DNA of 32,693 nt from a virus: IMG/VR virus record IMGVR_UViG_3300042556_003028, positions 1 to 32,693 of that record; one strand, 5' to 3'. The position numbers were made by a program, and so were the translations under genes. Positions 15,275-27,365 of this stretch are shown piece after piece. Every line of letters begins with the position of its first letter. The stretch's first letter is position 1. The notes beneath the pieces were generated by a model, which was not told where the DNA came from, searched no databases, and saw only the letters and a list, made by a program, of their open reading frames with translations.

Positions 15275-15565
15275 TCATCCTCCACAGTAAACATTATTTG
15301 ATCCTGTTCCGCAAGCAGATCCACATGCGACGGGATCACCTATTCTTGCCGCTGGCTTGCTATTTACAAATACGCTAGATGATCCGGCGGCTGTTTTTGA
15401 GTTCTTATGACACGGTTTACCACAACAATGTGTCGCCCATTTATCGGTTTTTCTATGCCACCCACGACTATTTACAACTACATTTGAGGATGCTGATAGA
15501 TTCTTCCTTGGAGGGAAGCATGCATGTCCTGTACATATGTCGCCTAATCTCGTTACTGCTGGCAT
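15275..15565 (-). CDS. PAAR-domain spike tip protein (gp5.4-like)
   Basis: This 96-aa protein has the PAAR pattern: RLGDICTGHACFPPR at the start, VVVNSRGW, a central Cys/His cluster (HCCGKPCH), then SSSVFVNSKPAARIGDPVACGS and a final NNVYCGG. PAAR proteins are cone-shaped, metal-binding tips that cap the gp5 trimer spike; T4 gp5.4 is the equivalent. The ligands are probably among C11, H14, C16 and the HCC/CxxxC cluster. The gene is close to gp5 and gp25, as expected, and GAGG is placed 4 nt before the ATG. Confidence 0.92.
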   Translation of the reverse strand: MPAVTRLGDICTGHACFPPRKNLSASSNVVVNSRGWHRKTDKWATHCCGKPCHKNSKTAAGSSSVFVNSKPAARIGDPVACGSACGTGSNNVYCGG

Positions 15566-16856: not shown

Positions 16857-17960
16857 TTAATTCCTACTGAATACTTTTTTAACCGTACTTCTTAATTTTG
16901 CAAGAAGTGTCTTGATTCTACCGGCTGATGCGCCTTGCGGATTTAAATCTATTCTTGGTGCAACAAAAAGCATCTTTCCGTCGCTGGCAACTGTGTATTT
17001 TCCATTCACCTTATGAAGAAAGTTACCTTGAGTCTCCATGACCGTATTTCCTTTCACAAGAACACGCATCTCGCCCTCTGTCTCTATCTCTAGATCCTTA
17101 CCGACACGGATCTTGAGTAATTTATCAGAATTTAATGTGGTATTTCCCCGAACAAGAATCAATCTATCATTTAGGGTTATGTTCCACTCATTTCCAACTA
17201 CCTTATGTACCTCACTACCATTAGGATGAACTTCATTGAATGTACCTGACTTATGATAATTATGTATCCGTTCTGCTCCAGGAGTATCGTCTACCTCAAA
17301 CACATGTCCCGATTTTGTCTCTGTCACATGGTTATTAGGATAAACTGCGGCATAAGGTGTTATAGGCTCTTGCCAATATCCATATAGCGCAGTATCACAC
17401 TCAACAACTTCATCTTTCTTTTTTTTGACAATAGTCCACTCAACATTTTCGTTTCTAACTAATCTGTTCGTGTCTGGTTCATTCATTCTTCCTTCAATAG
17501 GATAGAACCCATTCGGATCCCTAAATCCAGCAGAATTATTCATAAGACTATTCTTCTTTGGCCCCATACCAAGGTCGTTGTATGGAACATCCGGCAAAGA
17601 AGATTGAGATTGACTGTTGTTTTTTAATACATCTGGTTTTTGTATTCCCCCATATGAACCTAGAACAAATGGCTGTTGTGCATTTTTTCCGTCTAAGAAG
17701 AATCCTATAACCCAAGAACCCGGAAGTATTCCGGTTGGTGAAGTTCCTATTCCTGTCATCGCAGCACTTGTAATAGGCTGTAAAACCATTGCCCAAGGAA
17801 GATCATTCGTGGGAATTCCATATTCAGTTTTATTGTCCGTGTGCCATCCAAGCACACGCACACGAACACGACCCATTTTTTGGGGGTCGTTCACATCTTC
17901 GATTACACCATGCCACCAAACAAACTTATCCAAACCAACATAATCATGTGTATCGCTCAT
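16857..17960 (-). CDS. gp5: baseplate central spike/hub protein gp5 (no lysozyme domain)
   Basis: Residues about 12-115 form the gp5/VgrG-type OB fold: VWWHGVIEDVNDPQKMGRVRVR, DLPWAMVLQPITSAAM, GTSPTGILPGSWVIGFF and PFVLGSYGG. Residues about 195-345 are a beta-helix of short repeating strands (GTFNEVHPNGSEVHKVV, then DLEIETEGEMRVLVKGN), the needle of the spike. T4 gp5 is 575 aa with a lysozyme domain between these parts; here that space (about residues 120-195) is a short linker with no lysozyme motifs. The product trimerises on the gp27-like hub and is tipped by PAAR. It overlaps the preceding gene by 4 nt. Confidence 0.9.
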   Translation of the reverse strand: MSDTHDYVGLDKFVWWHGVIEDVNDPQKMGRVRVRVLGWHTDNKTEYGIPTNDLPWAMVLQPITSAAMTGIGTSPTGILPGSWVIGFFLDGKNAQQPFVLGSYGGIQKPDVLKNNSQSQSSLPDVPYNDLGMGPKKNSLMNNSAGFRDPNGFYPIEGRMNEPDTNRLVRNENVEWTIVKKKKDEVVECDTALYGYWQEPITPYAAVYPNNHVTETKSGHVFEVDDTPGAERIHNYHKSGTFNEVHPNGSEVHKVVGNEWNITLNDRLILVRGNTTLNSDKLLKIRVGKDLEIETEGEMRVLVKGNTVMETQGNFLHKVNGKYTVASDGKMLFVAPRIDLNPQGASAGRIKTLLAKLRSTVKKVFSRN

Positions 17961-22436: not shown

Positions 22437-23174
22437 ATGCCTGAAAGAAACTTCATAGACAATCTAATTGGACAAATGCGAGTAAAGGGTTTCGCCAGAC
22501 CCAACCGCTGGATTGTTATAATCGATCTTGATGCGAATCTTGCAACAAATCTGGGATTTTCCAAAGCGGCTATAGTTAGGAGACTAGCAACGACTTGCAA
22601 CTCTGTTTCTATTCCCAATAAGTCTTTCTACACACATGAGTTGAATGTATCTTATCCATCTACTCTGATTCCTTACGCAGTATCAACAAATAACCAAAGC
22701 GGTGCATCAATTGAGTTTAATGTTTTAGCAGATATGTTTGAGAAAGATGTGTTTGAAAATTGGCAAAATCAAATCATAGATCCTATTACCAAACAAGTTA
22801 ATTTCTACGACAAATATGCAAAGAATTCCTCTGTTGTGATAGTTGAGTTACCCAATTCCATCAAGGATCTTGAAGAGGGGATTGGTTATTCATACAACCA
22901 AAACGCATCTGGAATAAGACTCACAGAGATATATCCATACAATCTGAGCGTCAATAATGGAACACAGTCATATGATCAAACAACAGATGCATTAAAGATA
23001 AAAGTAGACTTCATGTATAGAGAAATCACAAAAATATCTCAACCAAGAATCAGCAATATAAACGAAGGTTTATATCTTGTCGATGAAAACGGAAATAACA
23101 TGGAAATACGAAGACTATTAACACAAGGATTAACTTTTATATCTCAAGGACAAGGGTTCCTTGGACAACTGTGA
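22437..23174 (+). CDS. tail tube-fold protein, gp54/gp19-like
   Basis: This 245-aa protein has the layout of the T4 tail tube family. An N-terminal helix is followed by KGFARPNRWIVIIDL (T4 gp19 has SGDFARPNLFQVEI), a Cys/Pro turn (TTCNSVSIPNKSF), a middle FENWQNQIIDPITKQV (gp19 has KFVDWQSI) and an end LTEIYPYNLSVNN followed by KIKVDFMYREI. T4 gp19 is 163 aa; the longer length and the place beside other baseplate genes suggest the tube initiator gp54 rather than the main tube protein. It starts 1 nt after the preceding stop without a Shine-Dalgarno. Confidence 0.7.
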   Translation: MPERNFIDNLIGQMRVKGFARPNRWIVIIDLDANLATNLGFSKAAIVRRLATTCNSVSIPNKSFYTHELNVSYPSTLIPYAVSTNNQSGASIEFNVLADMFEKDVFENWQNQIIDPITKQVNFYDKYAKNSSVVIVELPNSIKDLEEGIGYSYNQNASGIRLTEIYPYNLSVNNGTQSYDQTTDALKIKVDFMYREITKISQPRISNINEGLYLVDENGNNMEIRRLLTQGLTFISQGQGFLGQL

Positions 23175-23200: not shown

Positions 23201-23911
23201 ATGGGAAATTTAACGAATCTAATATCAACCACACCGACATATGAAACTGTTCTTCCGACTAGTAAACAAAGAATTTCATACCGTCCGTTTCTAGTCAAAG
23301 AAGAAAAAATACTTCTAATCGCATCAGAATCAAAAAACGAAAAAGAAATATCTAGAGCGATGAATGATGTTGTGAGTGCATGTACCTTCGGAAAGGTTAA
23401 TATGCAAGACTCTTCCATCATTGATATCGAATATCTATTTTTACAGATAAGAAGTAAATCGGTTGGCGAAACCACTAAACCTATGGTCAAGTGTAAAAAG
23501 TGCGAGGCAACCAACGAAATTCAAATCGACTTGACAAAAATTCATCCCGTTACGAATTCAAATCACAACAGTAAAATTCAATTAACCGATAGTGTTATTG
23601 TTGAAATGAGATATCCAAAATTTTCCGATATAGAAAAGTTACAAGACGCCAATACCGAGACACAAAAGTTGTTTACATTAATGTCATTATGCATTGATAA
23701 AATACACACAAAAAAGGGCACATTCAATTCAATTGATCTTGAAGAAAGTGAGATTATTGACTTTATAGATAATTTAACGCAAAATCAATTTAGAAAAATG
23801 ACTGAGTTTTTTGAAACAATGCCGCAAATGAAATATGATGTGGATTACTCATGTGGTAAATGTGGAAACCGAGAAACCTTAAGTCTAAAAGGTGCCCAAG
23901 ATTTTTTCTAA
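23201..23911 (+). CDS. gp26: baseplate hub assembly protein gp26 (short, zero-frame product)
   Basis: This 236-aa protein has the T4 gp26-family start: TYETVLPTSKQRISYRPFLV and KEEKILLIASESK. Two CxxC pairs, C98/C101 (KCKKCEA) and C218/C221 (CGKCGNRE), probably bind zinc. The family acts in assembly of the baseplate hub around the tape measure. AAGGAG lies 11-12 nt before the ATG. The frame ends DFF-stop exactly on a slippery T TTT TTC heptamer, and a -1 slip continues into the extension at 23908-24099 to give a 299-aa fusion. The short product would be the major form if frameshifting is partial, as for lambda gpG. Confidence 0.85.
   Translation: MGNLTNLISTTPTYETVLPTSKQRISYRPFLVKEEKILLIASESKNEKEISRAMNDVVSACTFGKVNMQDSSIIDIEYLFLQIRSKSVGETTKPMVKCKKCEATNEIQIDLTKIHPVTNSNHNSKIQLTDSVIVEMRYPKFSDIEKLQDANTETQKLFTLMSLCIDKIHTKKGTFNSIDLEESEIIDFIDNLTQNQFRKMTEFFETMPQMKYDVDYSCGKCGNRETLSLKGAQDFF
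23887..23908 (+). promoter_or_regulatory. candidate programmed -1 frameshift site
   Basis: T TTT TTC at 23902-23908 fits X XXY YYZ in the gp26 frame (codons GAT TTT TTC TAA). The stop codon follows the heptamer directly. AAAAGGTG at 23887-23894 resembles a Shine-Dalgarno, with its GG 10 nt upstream of the slip site, the position of known stimulators in bacterial -1 frameshifts. A downstream stem is weak: GACC (23916-23919) with GGTC (23934-23937). Confidence 0.75.
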
Positions 23912-24099
23912 TTTCGACCTCCCATGATAGTCTGGTCAACTACTACGAAACTAACTTCGCTATGATTCAACACCACAAGTACTCACTTTCAGAATTAGAA
24001 TCAATGATGCCGTGGGAGCGTCGAATTTACATAGAACTTCTAATACAACACCTAAAGGATGAAAAAGAAAGAATGGAAAATGAAAGTCGGAATAGATAA
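23908..24099 (+). CDS. -1 frame extension of gp26 (tail chaperone-type, gp51-like)
   Basis: There are 63 codons after a -1 slip at 23902-23908, starting LISTSHDSLVNYYETNF and continuing HHKYSLSELESMMPWER, with a charged helical end (LKDEKERMENESRNR). The conserved-looking part starts right at the slip. The only ATG upstream in this frame (23860) lies within gp26, has no Shine-Dalgarno, and would give an N-terminus (MWKPRNLKSKRCPRFF) that looks like an out-of-frame reading of the zinc ribbon. The next ATG is inside the motif. A separate start is therefore unlikely, and fusion to gp26 explains it better. Some T4-like phages annotate a short similar ORF as a hub assembly protein; T4 gp51 itself is longer, so that name is uncertain. 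The tape measure gene follows after 26 nt. Confidence 0.72.
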   Translation, partial: LISTSHDSLVNYYETNFAMIQHHKYSLSELESMMPWERRIYIELLIQHLKDEKERMENESRNR

Positions 24100-24125: not shown

Positions 24126-27100
24126 ATGAAAGACCCAAACGAGATCAATCCCAAAAATACATTTGCACCTGAGAGTGACAATATCTCCAATAAACTCAAA
24201 TCTAATTCTCTCAGTGATACAGATAAAACTAGTATTGTTAATGATCTCCTTGACAAACTGAGAATTAGAGAAACTAAGTCTAATCTTGGTAATGTAACTG
24301 TCACAATAGTGGATGGATCCAAAAAGCCACGATCTCCATCAGGAATTTTTCCGCCGTCAACATCGGGATCTTCTTTCATATCGACCACAACAAATCTTGT
24401 GGTGAACTCCTCACCAAAAAATCAAACCAATACTAATTCTTCTCTAACTGGAGAAACCGCAAATCAAACCAAAAAAGAAGAGAAAAAAGAACCCGTTATA
24501 GAAAATAGTATGCGGGTAGGTTTTGAAAAACTTTTAGAGTCTCAAGATAGTTTGTTCAAAAAATTTGAGGTTGCCTCATCAAAAATGGAGCAGAGTTGGA
24601 AGGAAATCAGTAGTCTCAAGGCTGAAATATTTAAGATCGAAGAAACCGGTGAAGGAATAGACCAAATTGAAAAACTTCGCCTTCAACTTGATCGTGCAGT
24701 TCTCCTTAATAAATTAAGTAGTGACGAAGCCAATGCGATTCAATCCGAAATAAAAGATCGCCAAACAGAAATAGAAACATCCTTAACAACTATATCTGAA
24801 CAGTCATCTATAAATGCTGATGTTGCTCGTAAACTTCTTGGAGTAACAAAAAATGCAAGTGAAGAGTCATTAGAAAAACTTCGGGAAATCGATGATCGTA
24901 TAAACGACGATAACAAAAAGTTCGAATCGTTTATGATGCAGTTCAAATATGAAAATGAACTGACACGAAAGGTCGAAGACGAAATTAACTCTCGTCTAGA
25001 CAAATCGATATCCGATGCCGTGGAAAATTTCCAACTATTTACAAATCAAGATACATTAGTTGAAATATCGAAAAAAACAGGTCTTAATCTTGAAACTTTG
25101 GCTCTTATTCAAGAAGAAATTGCAAACAGTATTAACTCGGCTGGCGATAAAGTAGATCTATCTGATAAAAAAGAAGTAGAGAGATTCAAACAACAAATTA
25201 TAACCGAAACTAAATTCAAAAACGATATTGTAAAGGAACTAATAAAGAGCCGAGAAAAAATTGATACTGAAAGTGTCAAAAAAGAACTAAAATATCAGTA
25301 TGAAAGATCTGGTCTACCCGCAGCATTTGCAACAATAAAAGCAAAACAAAATGCAGAGCAAGAAGCGAATTTAAGAAGGAAGGCCATAGATGAGCAAATT
25401 CAAATACTGAAAACTCAAAACGAAACTGAAAAAAAGCAACTAGATCAAAGTTTATTCCAATCATCTCTGATTGAAGAAGACATCAGATATCGTCTTGAGA
25501 AAGAAAAAGAAGATTCCGGACTTCCTAAATGGTATCGTGAACTGAGAGAAAAACTTGAACCAATAAAAACAGTTCTTGATGATATGCTAGAAGCATACAA
25601 AAGTCAGGGGATATTGACTAAAATTTTGATGGCTCTTGGTCTTGTTGGAGGGATAATTGCAGGAGTAATTTCCGCTGCTATTTCTAAAGTTTTCTCAACA
25701 CTTGCAGGAGCATTCGGTGTATTTTCAAGACTGTTCCCTAACATTGCAAAGGGTATAACATCGTTCCTAGAAATATTGTCAAAAAGTGGAACGATTGGGA
25801 GTAAAATTATAAGTCCAATAATTAAAATGGTCAAACCTGTTATCACGGCTATGAAGTTCGTTATGAATTATCTTGGAATGTTGATAAAACCATTAGGTGC
25901 AATTTTCAACTCTTTTAAAGTTGGAGTATACCTTGGTAAAGAATTGGCGAAGGGTTTAAAGTATTTTATTGGGATACTAGGCAAACTGGCTTTGCCAATA
26001 ACAGTCTTATTGACAGCAATTGATGCTGTTATAGGAGGGTTTAAAGGATATAGCAAAGAGGGAGTGTCTGGAATAATCAAAGGAGCATTGTCGGGAATTA
26101 TAAGTGGTCTAACTTTCGGATTGATAGATTTCGAATCCATATTCAAGTTTTTTGGTGATACAATTCAACCAATATTTGATTCGATCAGCGATGCTGTTGC
26201 TCCATTTGCAGATTGGTTGACATCAACATATCGAATATTCAAAAAGGCTTTTGATGATATATCAGAAACATTTCAAGGTGGTGGGTCTCTAATCTACAAG
26301 ATATTCAAATCTTTTGGTCACTTGGCGGTCCTAGGGCTTGAGTACATTAAAAACAACATAATGTTAATTGTCAAAGGACTGTTTCAACTTGCAGTAGCCT
26401 TACCATTCAAAATTGGTGTGTTTTTAGGTGAAACATTAATTCACATATCAAAAGTGATACGAGATACTATCGATATGGCTATCAATTGGTTTATAAACTG
26501 GATAAGTAGCGGACAATGGCTAGGTGATATGAGGAATTTCGGTAATTGGATATGGAATGAATTAGTTGGTGTATTAGAAGATGCGATTAAAGGTCTTGCG
26601 GATGGTCTAGGTGAACTCCCGATAGTTGGAGAATATATCAAACAGGCTATAGGTGGGGGATCTAAATCTGCTCCCCCGATGACACAAGAAGAAATGCTGT
26701 CAGGTGAAGAAACAGGGATAGAAAGAACTTCAACTGAGATACTAGCAAGTAAAGATGCAGAGGCACAAAGAACTTCAACTGAGATACTAGCAAGTAAAGA
26801 TGCAGAGGCACAAAGAACTTCAACTGAGATACTAGCAAGTAAAGATGCAGAGGCACAAAGAACTTCAACTGAGATAGCCAAAGAGTTTGGTGAAAAATTA
26901 AATGAAGATCAAAAACGCAGAGATACTGCTGCTGTTATCACTTTAAATAAACTAATTGGAAACGCACAATCAAGTGAAGAAACCTTGTCGAAAATTAACA
27001 ATATTTCATCTACTACGGAGAGAATGGCGAGTTCATATGCCGCCGAAAATAGAAAAATGATGACGCATGAGGCCATGATTTTTAGATCATTCAATGCAAT

Positions 27101-27365
27101 ATCTAATACATCATCTAAAAATAGTTCTGCTATCAGTATTGAAGACTCCACAAAAATCAAAAACATATCAAAAGAATTGGTCCGTGAAGTGAAAACAAGT
27201 GAGAATTTTAATGCAAGTAAAGGTAATTTGACAAGCGTAAATACGACTATGGTGAATAATAATACTTCTCCAGCACCACAGCCTGCTCTTATAGCACCTC
27301 AGCCACCGAGAAATACTGAGCCGACATATAGAAATATGATGTTTGCAGAAAATCCAGGATTCTGA
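24126..27365 (+). CDS. tail tape measure protein (gp29-equivalent)
   Basis: This is a 1079-aa protein. Residues 1-120 are polar and Ser/Asn/Thr-rich. Residues about 120-480 are long charged helices and coiled coils rich in Glu, Lys and Ile. Residues about 495-760 contain many hydrophobic Gly/Ala/Ile segments (ILMALGLVGGIIAGVISAAI), the membrane-active type seen in tape measures. Residues 867-911 are three identical 15-residue repeats. The end is Pro/Gln/Asn-rich. Length, composition and position directly after the gp26/-1 frame pair identify it as the tape measure that sets tail length and is threaded through the tube. AGGA lies 8 nt before the ATG. T4 gp29 is 590 aa, so a tail longer than that of T4 is expected. 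Confidence 0.85.
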   Translation: MKDPNEINPKNTFAPESDNISNKLKSNSLSDTDKTSIVNDLLDKLRIRETKSNLGNVTVTIVDGSKKPRSPSGIFPPSTSGSSFISTTTNLVVNSSPKNQTNTNSSLTGETANQTKKEEKKEPVIENSMRVGFEKLLESQDSLFKKFEVASSKMEQSWKEISSLKAEIFKIEETGEGIDQIEKLRLQLDRAVLLNKLSSDEANAIQSEIKDRQTEIETSLTTISEQSSINADVARKLLGVTKNASEESLEKLREIDDRINDDNKKFESFMMQFKYENELTRKVEDEINSRLDKSISDAVENFQLFTNQDTLVEISKKTGLNLETLALIQEEIANSINSAGDKVDLSDKKEVERFKQQIITETKFKNDIVKELIKSREKIDTESVKKELKYQYERSGLPAAFATIKAKQNAEQEANLRRKAIDEQIQILKTQNETEKKQLDQSLFQSSLIEEDIRYRLEKEKEDSGLPKWYRELREKLEPIKTVLDDMLEAYKSQGILTKILMALGLVGGIIAGVISAAISKVFSTLAGAFGVFSRLFPNIAKGITSFLEILSKSGTIGSKIISPIIKMVKPVITAMKFVMNYLGMLIKPLGAIFNSFKVGVYLGKELAKGLKYFIGILGKLALPITVLLTAIDAVIGGFKGYSKEGVSGIIKGALSGIISGLTFGLIDFESIFKFFGDTIQPIFDSISDAVAPFADWLTSTYRIFKKAFDDISETFQGGGSLIYKIFKSFGHLAVLGLEYIKNNIMLIVKGLFQLAVALPFKIGVFLGETLIHISKVIRDTIDMAINWFINWISSGQWLGDMRNFGNWIWNELVGVLEDAIKGLADGLGELPIVGEYIKQAIGGGSKSAPPMTQEEMLSGEETGIERTSTEILASKDAEAQRTSTEILASKDAEAQRTSTEILASKDAEAQRTSTEIAKEFGEKLNEDQKRRDTAAVITLNKLIGNAQSSEETLSKINNISSTTERMASSYAAENRKMMTHEAMIFRSFNAISNTSSKNSSAISIEDSTKIKNISKELVREVKTSENFNASKGNLTSVNTTMVNNNTSPAPQPALIAPQPPRNTEPTYRNMMFAENPGF
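26724..26876 (+). repeat. 45-bp perfect tandem repeat in the tape measure gene
   Basis: Three identical copies start at 26724, 26769 and 26814, each beginning AGAACTTCAACTGAGATACT and encoding RTSTEILASKDAEAQ. A fourth partial copy (RTSTEI) starts at 26859. The copies show no base differences, which points to recent duplication. The unit is 15 codons, so the frame is kept. Confidence 0.95.

Follow-up and report, generated by a model that had tools for sequence, protein, structure and literature searches.

Predicted −1 frameshifting in a gp26-type gene for a probable tail assembly chaperone and its counterparts among T4-like phages

Introduction

Does the short open frame that follows the gp26-type gene of this virus encode a small protein of its own, or is it the end of a longer form of gp26? 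A first-pass annotation of the DNA had proposed the second, by way of a −1 slip of the ribosome at the 3' end of gp26. The window, by which we mean the whole stretch of DNA analysed, is a complete virus record of 32,693 nt and contains a single PF12322 gene (Table 1). Comparison of this locus with its relatives leads us to propose that gp26 is very probably a tail assembly chaperone, two forms of which would be made from one gene by slippage into the −1 frame at T TTT TTC.

Results

The gp26 gene and its slip site

The gp26 product scores 201.1 bits against Pfam PF12322 (T4_baseplate), above the cut-off of 24.5. The 3' end of the gene reads GAT TTT TTC TAA, with the heptamer in the phase T|TTT|TTC. 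The −1 frame is open from an ATG at 23860 to the TAA at 24097-24099, and the following ORF begins with the ATG at 24126. The gene end, the heptamer at 23902-23908 and the 63-codon extension are exactly as the first-pass annotation had read them, and the predicted junction peptide of the fusion is DFFLISTSHDSLVNYY. The heptamer by itself is no evidence, since the window contains 15 copies of TTTTTTC on its two strands where 18.85 ± 3.88 are expected. The argument for the predicted frameshift is made by comparison among relatives and not by the heptamer alone.

Table 1. Features of the gp26 locus in the window, and loci of relatives in which the heptamer is absent
Feature	Position	Strand	Basis
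Tail tube protein gene, upstream of gp26	22437-23174	+	phrog_45, E 1.8e-13
gp26-type gene, short form (236 aa), PF12322	23201-23911	+	Pfam T4_baseplate, E 2.4e-59; phrog_150, E 2e-62
Shine-Dalgarno-like AAAAGGTG, proposed stimulator, about 10 nt upstream of slip site	23887-23894	+	clade-wide anti-SD minimum
Slippery heptamer T TTT TTC, in gp26 frame	23902-23908	+	sequence reading; kept in 172/177 non-redundant −1 loci
gp26 stop TAA, adjoining the heptamer, bypassed by the predicted −1 slip	23909-23911	+	
−1 extension (63 codons, 23908-24096, and stop TAA, 24097-24099); predicted long form 299 aa	23908-24099	+	phrog_634, E 3.9e-26
1079-aa ORF in tape-measure position	24126-27365	+	position, length and predicted hydrophobic/helical sequence only
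Ackermannviridae-type loci without heptamer	L088 2780-2960; L091 2150-2351; L089, L295, L189, L190, L193-L195		

Conservation of the heptamer and of the extension among relatives

In addition to the window, the survey took in 260 IMG/VR loci and 18 stretches from named phages, 279 loci in all. The sample was capped (the best 80 kept of at least 600 stretches) and was drawn by similarity of the proteins; the heptamer played no part in the choice. A gp26 profile and an extension profile were run across all 279 sequences; gp26 was detected in every one, and 273 also gave a match to the extension. Of these, 271 have it in the −1 frame, two (T4 and Aes012) have it fused to gp26, and none has it in the +1 frame. 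The six loci with no extension match were set aside before the counts. Four of these (L237, L258, L259 and L274) stop no more than about 50 nt past the gp26 match, and in the other two (L085 and L089) a −1 extension missed by the profile is visible by eye. Removal of near-duplicates left 179 loci, 177 with a −1 extension and two fused, among which the window is represented by an identical twin (L001).

T TTT TTN is found in frame at the junction in 172 of the 177 non-redundant −1 loci, which answers a check proposed in the first-pass annotation. Its seventh base is C in 112 loci, T in 42, A in 16 and G in 2. Further instances of the heptamer were read in VH7D, S-B68, S-CRM01, IG49, XG4 and four loci of the phiAS5 kind. 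Conditional on a Phe at the junction and on loci that bear the heptamer, the amino acids and codon usage of each locus would give the NNT TTT form in about 71 of the 172 (log10 joint probability −71), and, with one locus taken per 50%-identity gp26 cluster, in 28 of 75, compared with 75 of 75 observed. Other Phe-Phe and Phe-Leu pairs in the same loci read NNT TTT TTN in 275 of 2130 cases. Judged by codon usage, the conservation of the heptamer exceeds chance beyond the constraint imposed by the amino acids.

Substitution patterns suggest where translation of the −1 frame begins. Across 61 independent pairs of relatives, mismatches at the first, second and third positions of the −1 frame number 140, 91 and 241 in codons 1-13 after the slip, and 369, 134 and 803 beyond codon 13 of the extension. 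The excess at third positions in codons 1-13 indicates that the −1 frame is translated straight from the heptamer.

Start codons and alternative readings

Between 23860 and 24096, the only ATG, GTG or TTG codons in the extension frame are the ATGs at 23860, 23962, 24004, 24007 and 24073. The first sits inside gp26, is preceded by TGTGGATTACTCATGTGGTAA and has no good Shine-Dalgarno; the other four fall within the conserved part of the extension. No upstream ATG occurs in the open extension frame of 163 of the 172 heptamer-bearing loci. The earlier view that the extension has no credible start of its own is borne out by both the window and these relatives. In 124 of the 172 loci an ATG is missing both upstream and over the 11 codons that follow the slip; in 48 it is present in one or the other place, and 86 loci have neither ATG, GTG nor TTG in this range. 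The gp26 stop lies 9-27 nt past the heptamer in 12 of the 172, such that the first conserved residues of the extension (RVALSHDSL and similar) are encoded ahead of that stop; ten of these 12 have no ATG, GTG or TTG between the preceding stop in the extension frame and codon 11.

Under one alternative, termination and reinitiation, a ribosome that has completed gp26 would start again close by in the −1 frame, and the extension would come out as a small protein of its own. An ATG overlaps the gp26 stop in 15 of the 172 heptamer-bearing non-redundant loci, and likewise in BUCT608, RL2RES, VH7D and S-CRM01, and Ackermannviridae-type loci have TAATG and no heptamer. However, the window has TAATT, with no ATG, GTG or TTG in the extension frame from the stop to 23962, and reinitiation after the stop cannot produce the conserved residues that precede it in the 12 loci described above. 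Reinitiation also leaves unexplained why T TTT TTN is conserved and why a Shine-Dalgarno-like element stands about 10 nt ahead of it, and we consider this alternative very unlikely.

It is highly improbable that the extension is an independent gene starting at ATG 23860 or ATG 23962, as might be supposed from records in which a separate ORF is annotated (for example, gp51 of P-SSM2 and S-PM2). Neither ATG has a Shine-Dalgarno, a start at 23962 would lose the conserved first 18 residues, and the starts annotated in relatives are scattered, some overlapping the gp26 stop and others lying as far as about 50 nt beyond it, in a frame that mostly lacks an upstream ATG.

Transcriptional slippage, in which a U would be added at the T run and part of the mRNA would encode the fusion, usually needs runs longer than six Ts. 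The site is indeed a T run, and seven Ts are present in 21 of the 172 loci and eight in another 21. Just six are found in 130, however, and the seventh base varies among C, T, A and G while the codon phase is fixed, which makes this reading hardly credible. An error of sequencing or assembly that divided one gene into two is of negligible probability; a T6 run is error-prone, but the same break recurs in 271 of the 279 loci, in independent records that include published phage genomes.

Stimulatory elements and proposed mechanism

In the clade mean, the energy of pairing with the anti-Shine-Dalgarno sequence reaches its minimum 6-8 nt before the heptamer, with −5.84 kcal/mol for 10-mers that end 6 nt before it. 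The upstream anti-SD energy is −5.87 kcal/mol, compared with −4.50 kcal/mol in synonymous shuffles, and was reached by none of 40 shuffles. At the place of the Shine-Dalgarno-like element, GAG accounts for 57 of 86 Glu codons against 21.7 expected. The element that the first-pass annotation had noticed at stimulator distance is therefore clade-wide and exceeds the expectation from codon usage. Averaged over the clade, downstream RNA folds more stably than its synonymous shuffles do (z −1.33 in the mean, with 29% of the 172 loci below −2). For the window itself, downstream RNA structure was rejected as a stimulator (z 0.13; other estimates −0.23 to 0.20).

We infer that slippage on the heptamer takes place in cells, at a rate that would favor the short form. 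The majority of ribosomes would end at the TAA at 23909 and release the 236-aa protein. A minority would pause, aided by pairing of AAAAGGTG with 16S rRNA, slip by −1 on T TTT TTC and read 63 more codons, giving a 299-aa form whose C-terminal domain would be helical. If lambda gpG and gpGT are a guide, the tape measure protein would be coated by the part common to both forms, with the extension bringing in the tail tube protein, and the short and long forms of gp26 may thereby act in tube assembly.

Relation to T4 gp26 and gp51

Residues 5-61 of the extension match positions 61-117 of phrog_634, ‘baseplate hub assembly catalyst’, and the extension also matches the end of phrog_150 (positions 236-282, E 1.9e-5). 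T4 has a gp26 of 208 aa and a gp51 of 249 aa encoded on the opposite strand, which score 215.6 and 177.5 bits, respectively, against PF12322. T4 gp51 covers positions 13-280 of the 282 in phrog_150 and T4 gp26 only 14-235; the coverage of gp51 is not independent evidence, as phrog_150 probably contains gp51 members. A gp26 profile built without T4 matches T4 gp51 (E 7.6e-10), and the extension profile matches its C-terminus (residues 206-241, E 1.1e-8), whereas T4 gp26 is matched by the gp26 profile only. The long form is homologous to T4 gp51 and the short form to T4 gp26. By these profile comparisons, T4 gp51 is a gp26-like domain and the extension in one frame, and the extension is the counterpart both of the C-terminal end of T4 gp51 and of the protein annotated in cyanophages as a small ‘gp51’. 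T4 thus holds as two genes what the window would make from one.

The distribution of PF12322 genes follows the same division. In searches of whole records, T4 and Aes012 yielded two such genes apiece and 16 other phages a single one; among these 16, the heptamer is present in 13 and absent in 3 (Marshall, K386 and BX-1). No T TTT TTN was found in any of seven T4-type gp26 genes (T4, L280, L284, L285, L287, L288 and L289). In one of these T4-type records (L288, 2501-3246), the gp51 homologue is broken: its first frame stops after 126 codons and similarity to T4 gp51 continues to residue 247, reflecting a genuine frameshift or a sequencing error.

The ‘gp51 hub assembly catalyst’ of cyanophages and their relatives is most likely the frameshift tail of gp26 and not a gene of its own. 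The first-pass annotation had named such a mis-annotation of the small hub assembly ORF as the consequence if the frameshift were general in distant T4-like phages. The identity of the extension with the C-terminal part of T4 gp51 and the heptamer in 172 of 177 loci speak for it; its generality does not hold, as Ackermannviridae-type loci have no heptamer and T4 uses two genes. Sullivan et al. (2010) describe a cyanophage gp51 only about 20% of the T4 length and similar to its C-terminus (PMC3037559), and a frameshift tail would explain this short protein. In the accessible part of that paper, no mention of frameshifting was found alongside the short gp51.

Annotated records treat the locus unevenly. 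None of 22 annotated phage records (24 stretches fetched) has a joined CDS here. The extension is unannotated in VH7D (L290, 1486-1700), in L096 and L097 (about 1490-1690) and in L088 (2798-2959), and other records annotate it as a small ORF with scattered starts.

Neighboring genes

The first-pass annotation had compared the gene order to that of lambda. The short ORF, the −1 extension and, by its phrog_45 match, a tail tube gene upstream are in place; the tape measure is assigned by position. The 1079-aa ORF has no match in PHROGs, Pfam or NCBIfam, unlike its well-matched neighbors, and tblastn against 50,697 phage records gave one weak match (E 3e-3). HTVC008M has a ‘putative tail tape measure’ after the same gene pair, with one 110-aa ORF between. 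Place, size and this comparison suggest that the 1079-aa ORF encodes the tape measure protein.

Within this ORF, a 15-residue unit, TSTEILASKDAEAQR, recurs in tandem: positions 26722-26876 hold 3.4 copies of a 45-nt period, with 100% matches. Elsewhere in the window, a PAAR-type protein (15278-15565) and a 367-aa hub/lysozyme-like protein (16860-17960, minus strand) are encoded; the latter matches phrog_430 and is much shorter than the 868-position profile.

Predicted fold of gp26

The AlphaFold2 model of gp26 has a pLDDT of 93.8 and a pTM of 0.86. Among 994 chains re-aligned with VIA-align, the top match is 2ob9 (HK97 gp13, a tail assembly chaperone; Z 7.8), followed by 3fgx (RBSTP2171, Z 7.7) and 3klu (YqbN, Z 6.9), and then by 5ir0 (Z 5.2). 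The first three all cover the N-terminal domain of gp26 (residues 1-98), and HK97 gp13, RBSTP2171 and YqbN are called phage tail assembly chaperones in a published account (PMC9603447). Foldseek returned nothing at E ≤ 0.001 for the gp26 model (HK97 match, E 0.53), and a search for sequence relatives in the PDB gave none that was credible (best E 0.36). For a gp51-type model (9 sequences, pLDDT 87.5), the best VIA-align match was C1QBP (Z 5.0), and no chaperone was listed. With Z under 8, a Foldseek E of 0.53 and no chaperones listed for the gp51-type model, the modeled resemblance of the gp26 N-terminal domain to the three solved chaperones is suggestive only.

Loci without the heptamer

The five non-redundant −1 loci that lack the heptamer, corresponding to 20 of the 271 −1 loci, are all Ackermannviridae-type. 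They keep the −1 extension with its MPWH/APWQ core, and at the place of the heptamer have the codons ATT TTC, CTT TTC, CTT TTT or GTT TTT. Their extension mostly begins at TAATG, in which stop and start overlap; Marshall, L189 and L190 have TAATT, with no standard start. The part corresponding to T may be a separate protein in these phages, or may use an unknown shift.

We tentatively suggest, giving it rather less than even credence, that one chaperone locus is decoded in three ways across the T4-like superfamily. The first would be programmed −1 slippage in a single gene, as predicted for no fewer than 75 lineages (at 50% identity) and for the window. The second would be one short and one fused gene with the heptamer lost (T4 group), and the third the Ackermannviridae type, with the slip site replaced by TAATG, or in some by TAATT with no standard start. 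If this were true, the need for a covalent G-T fusion could be asked directly.

Comparison with known systems

Lambda-type G/GT frameshifting is classical. The gp26 locus shares with it the order of short ORF, −1 slip near the 3' end, extension and tape-measure gene, the last assigned here by position. No sequence relation of gp26 to lambda was found, the slip site T TTT TTC differs from that of lambda, and gp26, unlike lambda G, has extra domains with CxxC pairs and belongs to a contractile tail. A 2016 review describes the role of G and GT and gives the frameshift as conserved in long-tailed phages ‘except T4’ (PMC5009743). The internal Shine-Dalgarno upstream of the slip site has a counterpart of the same arrangement in dnaX, in which it aids −1 slippage (PMC5600365). 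The tail assembly chaperone (TAC) locus of Vandenendeviridae and Andersonviridae likewise has a conserved −1 extension before the tape measure that is routinely annotated as hypothetical; its motif is GTTTTT, in other phage families (PMC12846349).

For T4-like phages themselves, Vladimirov, Gautam and Davidson reportedly treated the tail assembly chaperones in 2022 (Virology 566:9-15). Papers that cite this work credit it with poly-T slippery signals in T4-like TAC-N genes (PMC12846349) and with the finding that, in place of the frameshift, certain T4-like phages possess a short gene together with a longer, fused one (PMC10885494). Compared through these citing papers, the gp26 locus is such a TAC-N gene, and the principle of chaperone frameshifting in T4-like phages is already in print. 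A search of the literature outside subscription papers found no description of the cyanophage gp26/gp51 heptamer itself. The value of the present analysis therefore lies mainly in the annotation, the breadth of evidence and the Ackermannviridae exception. T4 gp26 and gp51, which are listed as hub assembly chaperones (PMC3004832, Table 2), are the homologues of the short and long forms, respectively; in T4 each has a gene of its own, the two genes lie on opposite strands and both have lost the heptamer, where the window has one gene that retains it.
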